From positions 1-59,647 of the forward strand of contig CALVPQ010000007.1 in assembly GCA_944351415.1 (NCBI GenBank): 59,647 nt of DNA, given 5' to 3'. This document shows positions 46,539-52,433 of this stretch, piece by piece. This DNA is from an uncultured Clostridia bacterium. GTDB taxonomy: Bacteria > Bacillota > Clostridia > Christensenellales > UBA1242. The position numbers were made by a program, and so were the translations under genes. Each line of letters starts with the position of its first letter. Positions within the stretch are counted from its first letter, which is position 1. Below the pieces are notes generated by a model. The model did no database searches. It was not told where the DNA came from and was given only the letters and a program-made list of their open reading frames with translations.

Positions 46539-47378
46539 TTAATATTTTTTAGCATTTTTCAGCTCTTCAAGAATCTTTAAATAGTTATAATAGCGAAGTT
46601 TGGATATTTTTCCATTTTTAACAGCTTTTATAACGCCACATTCATCGCTACTTTCATGTAGACAAGAACGATATTTACACTCCGCACGTGCCTGCAAGAA
46701 ATCTGGATAATATGCTGAAAGTTCTCGATAATCAAGACTGCTTACGTAAGATAAATCCAGCATTGAAAAACCAGCCGTGTCTGCAAGATAACCTCCATTT
46801 AATTTATAAAGTGTTACAAGCCGTGTGGTTTGTTTCCCTCGTTCTATTTTTTTTGATAAATTGCCTATTTGGGTCAGTTCATCATCATATATTGCATTTA
46901 TTATAGATGATTTTCCAACAGCACTCTGCCCTGCTAATGCACAAATACCTTTTATTTCTTGCTCAATTTCTTTGATTTGTTGACTCTTTGCTGAAATTTT
47001 TATAATTTTTACAATATTTTGATAACTATTATCTATAATATCAAAAAATTCTTGATTTGCTATATCCATTTTATTGATAATCAAAATTGGTTCTATATCA
47101 TTTAAAATGCAGTATATCAAAACTTTATCTACAAGGATAAAATCTGGCTTTGGAGATGGAGCTATAACAATAAAAAGCCTGTCAAGATTTGCAAGAGGCG
47201 GTCTTATAAGTAAATTTTTCCTAGGCAATACCTTTGTGATTGAATCTTGAAATTCAACTTTATCACCAACAAAGATTCCCGAAGTTTTTGTTTTCCCACT
47301 TGGACTGACTTTATATATCTTGCCTTCACTTTCTATTGTGAATAGATTTGCATTTTTTGTTAAAACAATTCCTTGCAT
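46539..47378 (-). CDS. rsgA: Ribosome small-subunit-dependent GTPase RsgA
   Basis: A 279-residue circularly permuted GTPase that checks late 30S maturation. An N-terminal OB-fold (about 1-70) is followed by G4 NKMD (102-105), then G1 GQSAVGKS (150-157) and G3 DTAGF (200-204), the permuted order. The zinc finger ligands are C234, C239, H241 and C247. GGAGAAT precedes ATG. In most Firmicutes prpC-prkC lie between rlmN and rsgA; here they are absent and a cloverleaf repeat occupies the gap. Confidence 0.95.
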   Translation of the reverse strand: MQGIVLTKNANLFTIESEGKIYKVSPSGKTKTSGIFVGDKVEFQDSITKVLPRKNLLIRPPLANLDRLFIVIAPSPKPDFILVDKVLIYCILNDIEPILIINKMDIANQEFFDIIDNSYQNIVKIIKISAKSQQIKEIEQEIKGICALAGQSAVGKSSIINAIYDDELTQIGNLSKKIERGKQTTRLVTLYKLNGGYLADTAGFSMLDLSYVSSLDYRELSAYYPDFLQARAECKYRSCLHESSDECGVIKAVKNGKISKLRYYNYLKILEELKNAKKY

Positions 47379-47427: not shown

Positions 47428-47524
47428 GGAGCATGAGCAAGAGCTTTTTGCAAAAAGCTCTTTAAGAAAAGCGATAGCTTTTCTTTAAAATTTTGGAGTC
47501 CCTTCAAAATTTTGCTCATGCTCC
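47428..47524. repeat. Cloverleaf intergenic element A (four-way junction)
   Basis: A 12-bp closing stem GGAGCATGAGCA (47428-47439) with TGCTCATGCTCC (47513-47524) encloses three hairpins: 47440-47449/47452-47461 (AGAGCTTTTT), 47464-47472/47477-47485 (AAGAAAAGC), and 47487-47495/47505-47513 (AAAATTTTG). Only two or three bases are unpaired between helices. Both DNA strands could fold the same way. TTAGAT and ATCTAA flank it as an outer imperfect repeat. It has no U-run and no coding potential. A second element of the same design lies at 50132-50223. Confidence 0.85.
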
Positions 47525-47578
47525 CCAGTATCTAATAATATTATTATACATTATTTTTCATATTAAATGAAACTTTTA

Positions 47579-48607
47579 TTAGTCTTGTGCAGATAAAATC
47601 TTATTTCTTAATTGTCCACAAGCACCTTCTATATCTTCTCCCATAGTTCTTCTTACTGTTGCAGAAATTCCAAGCGATTTAAGTTTATCTGCAAATTTAT
47701 ATGCCATAAGCCGTGTAGTAGCTTTAAGACTACGTTCTTTTACTACATTTAAAGGTATAATATTAACATGGAAATTATAGCCTTTCAAAAGCTTTGCAAG
47801 TCTTTTTACATCATCTTCACCATCATTTATATCTTTTATTAAAGTATATTCAAAATACACTCTTCTACCTGTTTTATTATAATAATCTTTACAAGCCTTT
47901 ATAAGTTCATCAAGTTTATACCTATTTGCAATTGGCATAATTTCCTTACGTTTTTCATCAGTAGTTGCATGAAGAGAAATAGTAAGTGATATATTTAAGT
48001 CTTTTTCAAGCAATTTATATATCTGCGGAACAAGCCCACAAGTTGAAAGTGATATATTTCGTTCACTTATTCCAAGCCCACGATTGGAACTTATTAGTTT
48101 AATAAATTTTACAACATTTTCAAAATTGTCAAGGGGCTCTCCTGAACCCATCAGAACAATATTAGTTATTTGTCTGTTTTTTCTGCTACCACCTAGGTCT
48201 CGATTCACCAAGAAAATTTGTCCAAGCATTTCTCCGGCAGATAAATTTCTTGCAAGTCCATGAAGGGTTGATGCACAAAATTTACAACCCATTCGGCAAC
48301 CTACCTGTGTTGAAACACAAATTGTATAGCCATATTTATATTTCATAAGCACACATTCCACTATATTTTTATCGGCAAATTCTATCACATATTTTCTTGT
48401 TCCATCTTTGCTTTCAAATCTTTTAAAAATTCTATAGTTTGGGTAATCGTCTTTGATTATATCCTTTAATGCCTGAGGTAAGTTTGATATTTCGTCTAGA
48501 GTTTTTCCACTATAAATTGCATCAAAAATTTGCTCCCCCCTAAAGGTGGGTAAGCCTAGAGACTTAACAAAATCTTTAATTTCATCAAAACTTAAATCTG
48601 CAAGCAT
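47579..48607 (-). CDS. rlmN: Dual-specificity rRNA/tRNA methyltransferase RlmN
   Basis: A 342-residue radical-SAM enzyme that makes 2-methyladenosine at 23S rRNA A2503 and in tRNAs. The iron-sulfur CxxxCxxC is C104, C108, C111 (GCRMGCKFC). The second catalytic Cys is C330 in EGACGQLR, paired with the conserved Cys upstream in the methyl-transfer mechanism. VLMGSGEPLDN binds SAM. AAAAAGG precedes ATG. It follows fmt by 67 bases; rsmB, usually between fmt and rlmN, is missing. Confidence 0.96.
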   Translation of the reverse strand: MLADLSFDEIKDFVKSLGLPTFRGEQIFDAIYSGKTLDEISNLPQALKDIIKDDYPNYRIFKRFESKDGTRKYVIEFADKNIVECVLMKYKYGYTICVSTQVGCRMGCKFCASTLHGLARNLSAGEMLGQIFLVNRDLGGSRKNRQITNIVLMGSGEPLDNFENVVKFIKLISSNRGLGISERNISLSTCGLVPQIYKLLEKDLNISLTISLHATTDEKRKEIMPIANRYKLDELIKACKDYYNKTGRRVYFEYTLIKDINDGEDDVKRLAKLLKGYNFHVNIIPLNVVKERSLKATTRLMAYKFADKLKSLGISATVRRTMGEDIEGACGQLRNKILSAQD

Positions 48608-48674
48608 AAATTACCTTTTTAATCAAATTATATTATTTTAAAATGATTGAATATATTTTATTATAAATTTTATT

Positions 48675-49586
48675 TTATAAAATAGTTTTTCCCAAAATAT
48701 CGTTATGACCATTTATATAATCTCTTCCAAATACCATCTTACCTGATGGAGATTGACAAGTTATGACTTCTATAGCACCATTCTTGCAACCAATAATAAA
48801 ATTTTTTTTATTAACCATAACTTTATTTTGCTCAACACTATATTTATTAGAAACATCAATAACTTTATAAATTTTGATAGTTCTATCTTCAAGCATAATG
48901 AAACAGCCTACCTCTTCTGCCAATGCTCTTACTCTATTCACAATTTGCTCTGCACTTTGTGAAAAGTCAAGTTTGCCGTCTTCTTTATTTATTTTTTGAA
49001 CAAGCAAAGCTTTGCTATTGTCTTGTGGAGTAAATTTTACACTTCCATTTTCTATTGCTTTTAGCACCTCAATCGTCATCTCTCCACCCATGATGGCAAG
49101 TTTTTCTTCTAATTCTAGATAATACTCACCACATATTTCATACTCTCTTTGCAGAATAATATCACCTGCATCAACTTCTTTAGCAACTTTCATTATAGTT
49201 ACACCTGTGATTTTATCTCCATTAAGAAGAGCCGATTGTATTGGAGTTGCACCTCTATATTTTGGCAAAAGAGATGGGTGAACATTTATTGCAAGTTTAT
49301 AATCTAAAAACTCCTGAGGCAATATTTGCCCAAACGAAGCAACCACAGCAACATCATAATCTATCTTTTTTATTTCTTCTATATGAAGCTTTACTTTATC
49401 AAAAGTATAAACATCTATGTTTTTTTTTATAGCAAATTCTTTTACTTCAGTAGATTTTAGTTTATGACCACGACCACTTGGCTTGTCTGGTTGAGTTATT
49501 ATTGCTGATATGTTAATTTTATTTGAAAATAATTTTTGCAAAACAATTTTTGAAAATCTTGAGCTTCCTAAAAATAATACTTTCAT
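48675..49586 (-). CDS. fmt: Methionyl-tRNA formyltransferase
   Basis: A 303-residue enzyme that formylates initiator Met-tRNA. Catalytic Asn101, His103 in NVHPSLLPKYRGATP and Asp139 in KEVDAGD are all present; the C-terminal OB-like tRNA-binding domain (about 205-300) is complete. The Shine-Dalgarno (GTGAG) is weak. The stop of def lies 38 bases upstream. With def immediately before, the add/remove formyl pair is linked as usual. Confidence 0.95.
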   Translation of the reverse strand: MKVLFLGSSRFSKIVLQKLFSNKINISAIITQPDKPSGRGHKLKSTEVKEFAIKKNIDVYTFDKVKLHIEEIKKIDYDVAVVASFGQILPQEFLDYKLAINVHPSLLPKYRGATPIQSALLNGDKITGVTIMKVAKEVDAGDIILQREYEICGEYYLELEEKLAIMGGEMTIEVLKAIENGSVKFTPQDNSKALLVQKINKEDGKLDFSQSAEQIVNRVRALAEEVGCFIMLEDRTIKIYKVIDVSNKYSVEQNKVMVNKKNFIIGCKNGAIEVITCQSPSGKMVFGRDYINGHNDILGKTIL

Positions 49587-49624
49587 TTATTTCTCACTTT
49601 TTAATCTATTTTTTATTGTTTTAT

Positions 49625-50098
49625 TTATATTTTTCCACCTTGTTTTAAATATTTATCTTTATCAAGACATTTGTCTATAAAAAGCACACCATTAAGGTGG
49701 TCAACTTCATGGCATATACATCTTGCAAGCCATTTTTCACATTTTACAGTGAAAGGATAACCATATCTGTCACAAGCTTTAACTGTGATTTCATAAGGAC
49801 GTTTCACCCTTCCCCTAAATGTTCCCACTGAAAGACAGCCTTCTTCTTCTATATCTTCGCCTTTCTGTGAAATAATCTCTGGGTTTATTAGTTCTAAAAA
49901 AGCATTGTTAACATCAACAACAATTGCCCTTCTAAGAATTCCAACCTGTGGTGCTGCCAACCCCATTCCATCATTCGCATACATAGTTTCCTTCATATCA
50001 TCAAGAAGTTCCCATAGTGATTCGTCATAGTCTTTGACTGGTTTTGATTTCTTTCGTAGTATATTCTCTCCTACAAAAACTACATTCCTTGTTGCCAT
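49625..50098 (-). CDS. def: Peptide deformylase
   Basis: A 157-residue metalloenzyme removing the N-formyl group from new proteins. All three family motifs are intact: GMGLAAPQVG (44-53), EEGCLS with metal ligand C88, and CHEVDH (H130, E131, H134). AAGGAG lies eight bases before ATG. The gap to priA upstream (154 bases) holds cloverleaf element B. Confidence 0.96.
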   Translation of the reverse strand: MATRNVVFVGENILRKKSKPVKDYDESLWELLDDMKETMYANDGMGLAAPQVGILRRAIVVDVNNAFLELINPEIISQKGEDIEEEGCLSVGTFRGRVKRPYEITVKACDRYGYPFTVKCEKWLARCICHEVDHLNGVLFIDKCLDKDKYLKQGGKI

Positions 50099-50131
50099 AT
50101 TTTTGCTCCTTTTTTTATTACTTTTTTATAT

Positions 50132-50223
50132 GCACACGAGCAAAAAGTGCAAAGCACTTTTTTAAAAAACTGCGGAGCAGTTTTTTCTAGATTTTGAAAA
50201 ATTTTCAAAATCTGCTCGTGTGC
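50132..50223. repeat. Cloverleaf intergenic element B (four-way junction)
   Basis: An 11-bp closing stem GCACACGAGCA (50132-50142) with TGCTCGTGTGC (50213-50223) encloses three hairpins: 50142-50150/50154-50162 (AAAAAGTGC, loop AAA), 50164-50173/50177-50186 (AAAAAACTGC, loop GGA), and 50190-50200/50202-50212 (GATTTTGAAAA). Unpaired junction bases are T and CTA. Architecture equals element A; the primary sequence differs except for GAGCA...TGCTC and the ATTTTG...CAAAAT third arm. Confidence 0.85.
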
Positions 50224-50252: not shown

Positions 50253-52433
50253 TTAAGATAAGTTCTGCGGATTAACCTCAAAAAAAACTGATGTTTTAGC
50301 ATTTTTATCAACAATATTAAAAACATCTTCTTCAATCATGTCTGCCTTCGCAAGTTTGAAACGCATCATAATTTGATAACGATATTTATCTTGAATACGT
50401 TTTATTGGTGATTTCATCGCATCTAGATATATTATATCATCTCCATACTTTTCTTTCAAGCCTTCTAACTCAGTATAGCAAATTTTTAAAAGTTCTCGAA
50501 CATAATTTTCATCATGGTCAACAAAAAGAACTCTTAAAATGCGTGTAAAAGGCGGAAACTGTGCTGTTTGCCTTATATTTTCTTCTTTTCTAAAAAAACC
50601 TTTAAAATCATAATTAGATGCAAACTTATAAACATAGTGTCGAGGCGAATATGTTTGCAAGACAACTTTGCCTTCATTTTCACTTCTTCCTGCCCTGCCT
50701 GAAACCTGAGTTATAAGTTGAAAAGTTCTTTCTGTGCTTCGATAATCTGCATGATATAAACTTTGGTCTGCATCAACTATGCCAACTAAAACAACGTTTT
50801 CAAAGTCATGCCCCTTTGCTATCATCTGTGTTCCAACAAGTATACAAGGCAAGGTGTTTTTAAATTCACTAAGTATCTTCTGGTGTGCATTTTTTGTTGA
50901 TGTGGTATCATTATCCATACGAAGAATTTTTACGTCAGGAAAATATTCTTTCAGCTTTGCCACAACCTGTTCAGTTCCAACAGCACCATTTTTTATATTT
51001 TCGCTGCCGCATTTTGGACATTTAGTAAGCACTTTATATTGTTTTCCACAATAATGACATTTAAGGCGGTTATCTTCTCTGTGATAAACTAGACTGACAT
51101 CACAATCCATACATTTTGCAATATAACCACAGTCACGACAACGCATAAATGACGAATATCCTCGTCTATTTATAAAAATCATTGCTTGTTTTTTATTGTT
51201 AATAACATTTGCAAGGTCTGCAAGCAATTGATTTGAAAAAATACCACTATTACCAGTTCTTATTTCATTCATCATATCTATAATCTGAATTTTAGGAAGT
51301 TCTTTCCCATTCGCTCTTGTAGCTAGTTCAATAAGTTGATATATCCCCTGTTTTGCCTTCTCGTAACTTTCAATAGAGGGAGTGGCACTTCCAAGAACAA
51401 GCGGACAATGGTTAAATCTTGCCCTAAATTCTGCAATATCGTGAGTATCAAACCGCGGGTTTGATTCTGAAATATAACTTTGTTCATGTTCTTCATCAAT
51501 TATAATCATACCTAAATTTTCTATCGGTGCAAAAATTGCAGAACGGGCACCTATCGCTATTCTTGCCTGTCCACTAAAAATTCGCTTCCACTCGTCAAAA
51601 CGTTCACCTGCAGAAAGCCCACTATGCAACAGTGCAACGTTGTTTCCAAAACGCGCTTTGAAGTTAGACATTATTTGTGGTGTCAGTGAAATTTCTGGCA
51701 CAAGCATAATTGCATTCTTTCCTTCAGAAAGTGCCCTTTCTATAAGATGCATATATACTTCAGTTTTTCCGCTTCCGGTTACACCATGCAAAAGATAGGT
51801 TTTATCTTCCTTGATTGTTTTTATAGCATTTTCTTGCCCATAATTTAATTTTACCTTTTTTGCATCAATAGATAAAACAAAAGGTGTGCGCTTTATTTCT
51901 CTTTTTTCTTTCTGCAAAATACCTTTATCACATAAAGCTTTTATAGCACCATATCCATACTGAGAAATTTCATTTGAGCTTGCACGTGAATTATGAATTT
52001 TTAAATATTCAACGATTTCTTGCTGTTTTTTAGCATTTTTTTGCAATTTTTCCACATTTTCTTCATTTAATAAATAAATTGTTTCAAAGAGCTCTTTAAC
52101 CTTTCCTTCTCTCATCTCAGCAGGAATAAAAAGTCTTAAAATAGAAGCAAGTTTAAGGTGATTTTTTTTCGCCATAAATTTCATAAGTTCAAGCATTTCT
52201 TTTTTTATAGCAGAAAAATCTTCTATCATTGATATAATTGCTTTAAGTTTACTTTCATCATAATCACAACTATCACTTAACCCAACAACAAATCCCTGCA
52301 ACACGCGTTTGCCAAATGGCACATAAACACGCATGCCAACTTCAATTGACATTTCTTGTGGCACAATATATTCAAATACTTTATCAAGAGCCTTTGCATC
52401 TTGGTCTATAATAACTTTTGCAAACTTTGCCAT
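50253..52433 (-). CDS. priA: Primosomal replication restart helicase PriA
   Basis: A 726-residue superfamily-2 helicase that reloads the replisome at stalled forks. The N-terminal DNA-binding domain (about 1-110) is followed by Walker [12 protein letters not shown] near 220, DEEH near 315, a zinc region with CxxC pairs (CRDCGYIAKCMDC...CHYCG...CPKC, about 438-478) and the C-terminal helicase lobe with QVSGRAGR. Length is normal. A TTGAGA-N17-TATAAT promoter ends eight bases before ATG with no Shine-Dalgarno, so the mRNA is predicted near-leaderless. It lies 140 bases from rpoZ; coaBC, which usually separates them, is absent. Confidence 0.96.
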   Translation of the reverse strand: MAKFAKVIIDQDAKALDKVFEYIVPQEMSIEVGMRVYVPFGKRVLQGFVVGLSDSCDYDESKLKAIISMIEDFSAIKKEMLELMKFMAKKNHLKLASILRLFIPAEMREGKVKELFETIYLLNEENVEKLQKNAKKQQEIVEYLKIHNSRASSNEISQYGYGAIKALCDKGILQKEKREIKRTPFVLSIDAKKVKLNYGQENAIKTIKEDKTYLLHGVTGSGKTEVYMHLIERALSEGKNAIMLVPEISLTPQIMSNFKARFGNNVALLHSGLSAGERFDEWKRIFSGQARIAIGARSAIFAPIENLGMIIIDEEHEQSYISESNPRFDTHDIAEFRARFNHCPLVLGSATPSIESYEKAKQGIYQLIELATRANGKELPKIQIIDMMNEIRTGNSGIFSNQLLADLANVINNKKQAMIFINRRGYSSFMRCRDCGYIAKCMDCDVSLVYHREDNRLKCHYCGKQYKVLTKCPKCGSENIKNGAVGTEQVVAKLKEYFPDVKILRMDNDTTSTKNAHQKILSEFKNTLPCILVGTQMIAKGHDFENVVLVGIVDADQSLYHADYRSTERTFQLITQVSGRAGRSENEGKVVLQTYSPRHYVYKFASNYDFKGFFRKEENIRQTAQFPPFTRILRVLFVDHDENYVRELLKICYTELEGLKEKYGDDIIYLDAMKSPIKRIQDKYRYQIMMRFKLAKADMIEEDVFNIVDKNAKTSVFFEVNPQNLS

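Follow-up and report, generated by a model that had tools for sequence, protein, structure and literature searches.

The locus considered here lies in a 59,647-nt stretch of DNA from an uncultured Clostridia bacterium (contig CALVPQ010000007.1), referred to below as the window, and consists of a minus-strand operon with the gene order priA-def-fmt-rlmN-rsgA-rpe, in which two spacers each contain a cloverleaf-shaped element. Element A (47428-47524, 97 nt) occupies the rlmN-rsgA spacer, its upstream neighbour being an rlmN-like radical SAM gene (47579-48607, minus strand), which matches Radical_SAM and stays under the cut-off for RlmN_N, and its downstream neighbour rsgA (46539-47378, minus strand, RsgA_GTPase). 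Element B (50132-50223, 92 nt) is found in the priA-def spacer, downstream of the primosomal helicase gene priA (50253-52433, minus strand) and upstream of the peptide deformylase gene def (49625-50098, minus strand). A sequence-only reading of this DNA had placed both elements at these very positions, as near-perfect four-way junctions inside a co-directional operon, and in this it was right.

In A, to which, as to B, no strand is assigned, the closing stem pairs 47428-47438 with 47514-47524 over 11 bp and encloses arm 1 (47439-47462, 10 bp, the GAGC-type arm), arm 2 (47464-47485, 9 bp, the AAGAAAAGC arm) and arm 3 (47487-47513, the AAAATTTT arm), the latter counting 12 bp when read as the plus strand, one G-T pair included. 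In B, the closing stem pairs 50132-50141 with 50214-50223 over 10 bp around arm 1 (50142-50162, 9 bp), arm 2 (50164-50186, 10 bp) and arm 3 (50189-50213, 11 bp). As had been noticed from the letters, nearly all junction bases are paired, with 0/1/1/0 unpaired positions in A and 0/1/2/0 in B. The lengths first proposed, 11-12 bp for the closing stem and 9-11 bp for the arms, fit the closing stem of A, the three arms of B and the first two arms of A, but neither the closing stem of B nor, on the plus strand, the third arm of A. The GAGC...GCTC junction and the ATTTTG/CAAAAT third arm are indeed common to A and B, yet GAGC is no constant of the wider family described below: among 28 forward GAGCA...TGCTC matches in the own genome, two of them within A, a cloverleaf was seen by eye only at A and B, and the motif was dropped as a family signature.

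When folded as RNA and as DNA, A and B form four-way cloverleafs on both strands, with z between -7.7 and -9.9 and none of 200 shuffles folding as well; in A, the two strands differ only at the tip of the third arm. A strict four-way-junction finder written for this analysis, demanding a closing stem of at least 8 bp, returned exactly two structures from the window, A and B, and none from 2,385,880 bases of dinucleotide-preserving shuffles of the window. An Rfam search of the window at gathering scores retrieved six tRNAs only, and no family on A or B.

With regard to transcription termination, neither element has a U run after a GC-containing stem on the sense (minus) strand, and the sole terminator-like site between 46500 and 50500 lies on the plus strand, opposite to the genes, within arm 2 of B, so that the earlier view of A and B as something other than ordinary terminators stands. 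Elsewhere in the window, a single open frame of 6863 aa covers 11266-31857 on the minus strand; no Pfam match at E 0.001 was obtained in its first and last 2000 residues.

A and B belong to a dispersed family. A model built from A alone already found more copies in the own genome (G000) and, among 24 other genomes, in G008, while a G013 match at E 0.63 was too weak to be kept. A second family model of 17 rows, some of which are the two strands of one element, located the family at 20 distinct places in G000 and at 19 in the relative G068. With the own genome counted, family matches occur in 30 of the 112 genomes of the genus and in 5 of 396 in an order-wide sample; these copy numbers and presences are minimum values, as scoring was limited to part of the first-look candidates. 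The one order-wide genome outside the genus to carry matches, G351, is from another genus of the same taxonomic family and has eight candidate matches. The further copies on which the sequence-only reading had made its case depend thus exist, both in the own genome and in relatives. Across the window and the fetched loci, the strict finder recovered 97 distinct structures of 74-122 bp. By contrast, the surroundings of priA relatives, 904 kb in 80 loci from records mostly named Clostridia or Christensenella, the nearest possibly of the same genus, contained none. There, the family model yielded two matches at E <=0.01, both in locus L171 and both belonging to a sister repeat presented further on. 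A candidate at L235 (E 0.016) resolved into two separate hairpins. The one collection of phage records searched with A and the one collection of plasmid records searched with B contained no match.

What the copies have in common is architecture, not sequence. Those found with the A-only model keep the arm order, GC-containing, middle and AAAATTTT-type, in either direction, with similar lengths and different letters, and some strict copies diverge from the AAAATTTT-type arm. In DNA BLAST, a 201-bp region around A gave, besides A itself, only pieces of 24-54 nt in 41 genomes. Concerning gene context, 62 of 105 copies have co-directional genes on either side, 16 have convergent and 5 divergent ones; 3 are at contig edges, and 19 overlap a putative open frame of at least 80 aa, most of these frames being short. 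By impression, contig ends also seem to lie close to elements.

The elements were probably inserted, as judged from the spacers of relatives. These spacers were measured, as nucleotides between gene matches, in 18 of the 80 priA-relative loci. The priA-def spacer spans 9-23 nt in 14 of the 16 loci in which both genes were matched, the two others (L181 and L187) having about 150 nt yet no cloverleaf. The rlmN-rsgA spacer spans 11-38 nt in 6 of 7 loci, and the seventh, L171, carries a cloverleaf of the sister type. The corresponding spacers in the window measure 154 and 200 nt. Insertion is therefore probable, because most of the relatives measured have only a short spacer at these sites. Like miniature inverted-repeat transposable elements (MITEs), the elements are short, occur in many dispersed copies and contain no coding gene, and their closing stems (11 bp in A, 10 bp in B) form terminal inverted repeats, with a sequence that is not common to the copies.

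Comparison of orthologous sites shows that the fold is retained while the letters change. The own genome and G068 are syntenic, and in ten orthologous pairs with flanks 71-91% identical, 312 of 397 comparable base pairs are unchanged Watson-Crick pairs, 57 are changed yet still Watson-Crick, and 28 have one-sided changes, of which 10 created or removed a G-T pair and 18 went uncompensated, with 23 gapped besides. The figure of 57 is an upper one, some of these changes being register shifts of the model alignment, as in B, for which the model alignment counts 9 paired changes and direct alignment gives unchanged stems; a separate covariation table, which includes both strands of some elements and a structure-fitted alignment, likewise overstates the effect. 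Changes are nevertheless mostly paired, and not of the unpaired kind that the sequence-only reading had named as telling against it. Beyond these two genomes, 20 of 22 clusters defined by neighbouring genes connect sites one-to-one between genomes, in some cases with wholly replaced arms. Among 63 arms in 21 of the 22 pairs (L103/L110 failed the strict finder and was omitted, also from the loop count below), 22 are the same, 3 inverted, 1 has an inverted centre and a changed stem, and 37 are different, some of the latter by trimmed ends only.

These paired changes had at first been taken to imply selection on structure. That step is unsafe, since template switching between hairpin arms, a process already described in the literature, can produce the same pattern by mutation (passages of PMC8794818 and PMC8604942). 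The question is then whether the constraint concerns RNA or DNA. If the cloverleaf worked in transcribed RNA, through mRNA stability, processing or termination, the paired changes would reflect RNA selection, and several features agree with this: the RNA fold is stable, 62 of the 105 copies lie between co-directional genes, and copies in such tandem spacers are closer to the upstream stop (median 58.5 nt) than to the downstream start (115.5 nt). In addition, the bcr1-bcr3 repeats of Bacillus cereus are described, in the relevant part of PMC3446304, as often located in untranslated regions (UTRs) or operon spacers. An RNA under selection should, however, clearly favour G-U, which is the mismatch that pairs in RNA, over A-C. 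Base pairs were counted in 103 elements, namely the 105 distinct ones among the best 150 of 188 rows minus two of identical sequence, drawn from 94 sources (the window and 93 loci, mainly without duplicates of the same places). Of the 4058 cells, 3865 are Watson-Crick, 51 G-T (1.3%), 21 A-C and 121 other, rows being read on the better-scoring strand, which biases the count towards G-T over A-C. In comparison, G-U accounts for 16 of 255 pairs (6.3%) in 12 tRNAs of these loci. On the sense strand of the 60 elements in tandem context, with transcription of the elements assumed, 15 G-U stand against 26 A-C (p 0.12), and in copies of the same orientation as their neighbours 6 against 6; the tolerance of G-U and rejection of A-C on the transcribed strand expected of a functional RNA is thus not observed. 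Moreover, orientation with respect to the neighbouring genes is mixed (40 opposite, 22 same), and A and B have no sense-strand terminator. The rarity of G-T together with the missing sense-strand preference for G-U makes the constraint look DNA-level. The RNA processing or decay signal considered in the sequence-only reading is thereby weakened, and we regard a working RNA as unlikely, although it is the alternative that survives best.

The loops point to the DNA as well. In 15 pairs comprising 45 arms, the loops change faster than the flanks: between the own genome and G068, 1 of 27 loops is identical while about 12.7 are expected, and 1 is exactly inverted; for G063 and G092, two close genomes, 11 of 18 are identical while 14.5 are expected, and 2 are exact inversions. 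The expected numbers derive from flank identities of 0.82 and 0.95, set by hand. In one further G063/G092 arm, several pairs changed along with the centre. Template switching between the arms of an inverted repeat leaves arm homogenisation and spacer inversion as footprints, according to the sections of PMC8604942 and PMC8794818 that deal with it, and the hairpin mutations described there resemble the present ones in that several bases change in a compensatory way and loops or spacers are inverted, whereas they concern rRNA, microRNA and coding palindromes instead of a repeat family built of hairpins. Together with the rare G-T pairs, the loop inversions support the DNA cruciform, one of the options raised from the sequence.

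Taken together, the family displays dispersal, retention of the fold, rare non-Watson-Crick pairs and fast-changing loops with few exact inversions. A and B may accordingly be old MITE-like insertions that fold as DNA and whose complementarity is kept by template switching from arm to arm, an explanation to which we give an even chance. According to this scenario, each arm would fold back in single-stranded DNA or in an extruded cruciform, and a polymerase would now and then switch between arms and re-match them, so that a point mutation would either become a paired change or be erased, and a loop could be inverted. Template switching, probably with some selection against breakage of the fold, would let the cloverleaf persist while its sequence drifts. 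The founders would have been spread by a putative enzyme recognising folded DNA and not sequence, and a host function, for instance as a supercoil sink, is possible. More tentatively, and with less confidence than the explanation just given, the family could be regarded as a repeat inherited as a fold instead of a sequence, with a junction re-perfected by arm-to-arm copying, so that every copy would drift in its letters and keep its shape, and read by machinery that sees the fold only.

Several observations weigh against old insertions maintained by template switching. The target-site duplication of typical MITEs is lacking in the family: none of 104 copies has an abutting direct repeat of at least 3, and when end offsets of up to 3 are allowed, the numbers in the same copies are near those of shuffled partners. 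Flank profiles reveal no strong motif. As for a mobilising enzyme, the Y1 family, the only one searched, is found neither in the own genome nor in G068. Among the 97 strict copies, the 40 closest pairs listed include none within the own genome and so give no sign of current mobility there. Exact loop inversions amount to just three in 45 arms, and the difference between G-U and A-C on the sense strand is not significant and indicates no preference either way. A scarcity of G-T pairs might equally result if template switching acted on an element under RNA selection. Finally, element arms are retained as hairpins in 18 of 23 cases and hairpins outside elements in 4 of 12, and this better retention argues that selection or some element-specific factor acts in addition to a general mutational process.

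Three near-identical copies in G068 (L090:2507-2599, L092:2503-2595 and L095:2506-2594) have some flank in common, a second cloverleaf less than 1 kb away from each, and neighbourhoods with partly similar repeats. They were considered as a case of transposition, a reading that was rejected because the identity of L090 and L092 runs on into the flanks, over 21 bp on the left and 118 bp on the right, so that a longer segment moved or was duplicated. In the pair L103:2601 and L110:2597 (G063/G092), 98.4% homology over 2.6 kb extends to the outer end of the cloverleaf and none was found beyond, as if a rearrangement had broken at that end. At L077:2509, L083:2503 and L073:7842, the flanks beyond the closing stem seem by eye to hold additional inverted repeats; at L077 and L083, which are orthologous sites, these repeats are not the same.

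The dispersed non-autonomous mobile element of the sequence-only reading is supported by the dispersal and by the short spacers that most relatives measured have at both sites, and lacks a target-site duplication and an enzyme. In its active form, with the cloverleaf as substrate of a structure-reading single-strand (HUH-like) transposase and the fold selected for transposition, this option also draws on a sister repeat, whose unit starts with ACTATGTGATG, closes with CATCACATAGT and continues in a tail of about 50 nt. DNA matches to it occur in 51 of the 112 genus genomes, dispersed and in places tandem (for example L105:8302-8436 in G063, and loci L141-L170), and in 23 of the 30 genomes carrying the A/B family. 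The same cloverleaf plan was recovered, with relaxed settings, in 23 of 30 fetched sister-repeat loci, and one copy is present in G063 and absent from G092. A search of viral contigs for its exact pattern gave no match. Unlike the A/B class, the sister repeat is conserved in sequence and resembles a small mobile repeat of the ordinary kind, and we infer a kinship between the two.

Y1 transposase matches were found in 13 of the 112 genus genomes, some with internal stop codons, and the A/B family is present in 10 of these 13 genomes against 20 of the 99 others. In one of them (G053), a Y1 gene of the IS200-like type (L261:1357-2192) is flanked on either side by ACCACGGG-type hairpins, and a cloverleaf of the sister repeat lies downstream at a distance of about 140 nt. 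By eye, this repeat sits outside the gene's own apparent end hairpins. Against a structure-reading transposase also speak the missing Y1 match in the two genomes richest in copies, the want of a strict cloverleaf in the four Y1 loci fetched, the lack of target-site duplications and the fact that orthologous copies remain paired long after insertion, while the enrichment in Y1 genomes may merely mirror genomes rich in mobile elements. An active element is slightly less probable than a working RNA. Least probable of all is a cruciform used by the host at each site as a putative binding site or supercoil sink under purifying selection, with which the one-to-one clusters, some of them with fully replaced arms, and the better retention of element arms would agree, but the family seems dispensable, no match being found in 82 of the 112 genus genomes, where presence is a lower bound.

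Among known systems, mitochondrial hairpin elements and GC clusters appear closest in behaviour, followed by the bcr repeats, the repetitive extragenic palindromic (REP) elements and Borrelia repeats. The bcr families of the Bacillus cereus group are recognisable by sequence, unlike the A/B family, which is recognisable by architecture. As with A/B, bcr repeats are intergenic, some of them MITE-like and some conserved in structure, and often lie in UTRs or operon spacers (PMC3446304, as far as its relevant passages go). The double-hairpin elements (DHE) and repetitive hairpin-forming elements (RHE) of Allomyces and sponge mitochondria and the yeast GC clusters are depicted, in the parts of PMC2800124 and PMC4478555 concerned with them, as small, dispersed, mostly intergenic palindromes whose stems are conserved or changed in a complementary manner, whose loops vary and whose distribution is sporadic, all as in A/B. 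They differ in having one to three hairpins instead of a closing stem around three hairpins on a bacterial chromosome, and A/B copies in one genome, unlike them, share almost no sequence. A and B are no mitochondrial DHE or RHE, being located in a bacterial operon, with uncultured Clostridia metagenome-assembled genomes as closest named relatives.

The REP elements are small palindromes thought to be moved by tyrosine transposases (RAYT) acting on single-stranded DNA, and are outlined in portions of PMC3733652 as 20-40 bp long with a GTAG or CGTC tag, whereas the A/B family measures 74-122 bp and has no shared tag and no linked transposase. With stems that differ between copies and no shared flank motif, the elements are, as first stated, not REP-like. 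The intergenic stem-loop repeats of Borrelia plasmids resemble A/B in their many paired stem changes between orthologues, but are read as RNA motifs in the corresponding part of PMC2674063, while the rare G-T pairs of A/B point to DNA. Searches for such elements or relatives of them, in a literature covered in part and without preprints, turned up no description of the A/B family; the MITE review PMC10969869 contains none of six terms for structure, and the relevant passages of PMC2267715 and PMC13155455 mention no cloverleaf.

Paired changes in stems usually count as strong evidence of a selected RNA, and the A/B family covaries very strongly yet looks constrained at the DNA level. The family is therefore a caution for the discovery of noncoding RNAs by covariation, and at the same time offers a natural system for asking how far palindromes can be kept perfect by template switching. 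If it is true that an enzyme reading structure spreads the element, this enzyme may be new.

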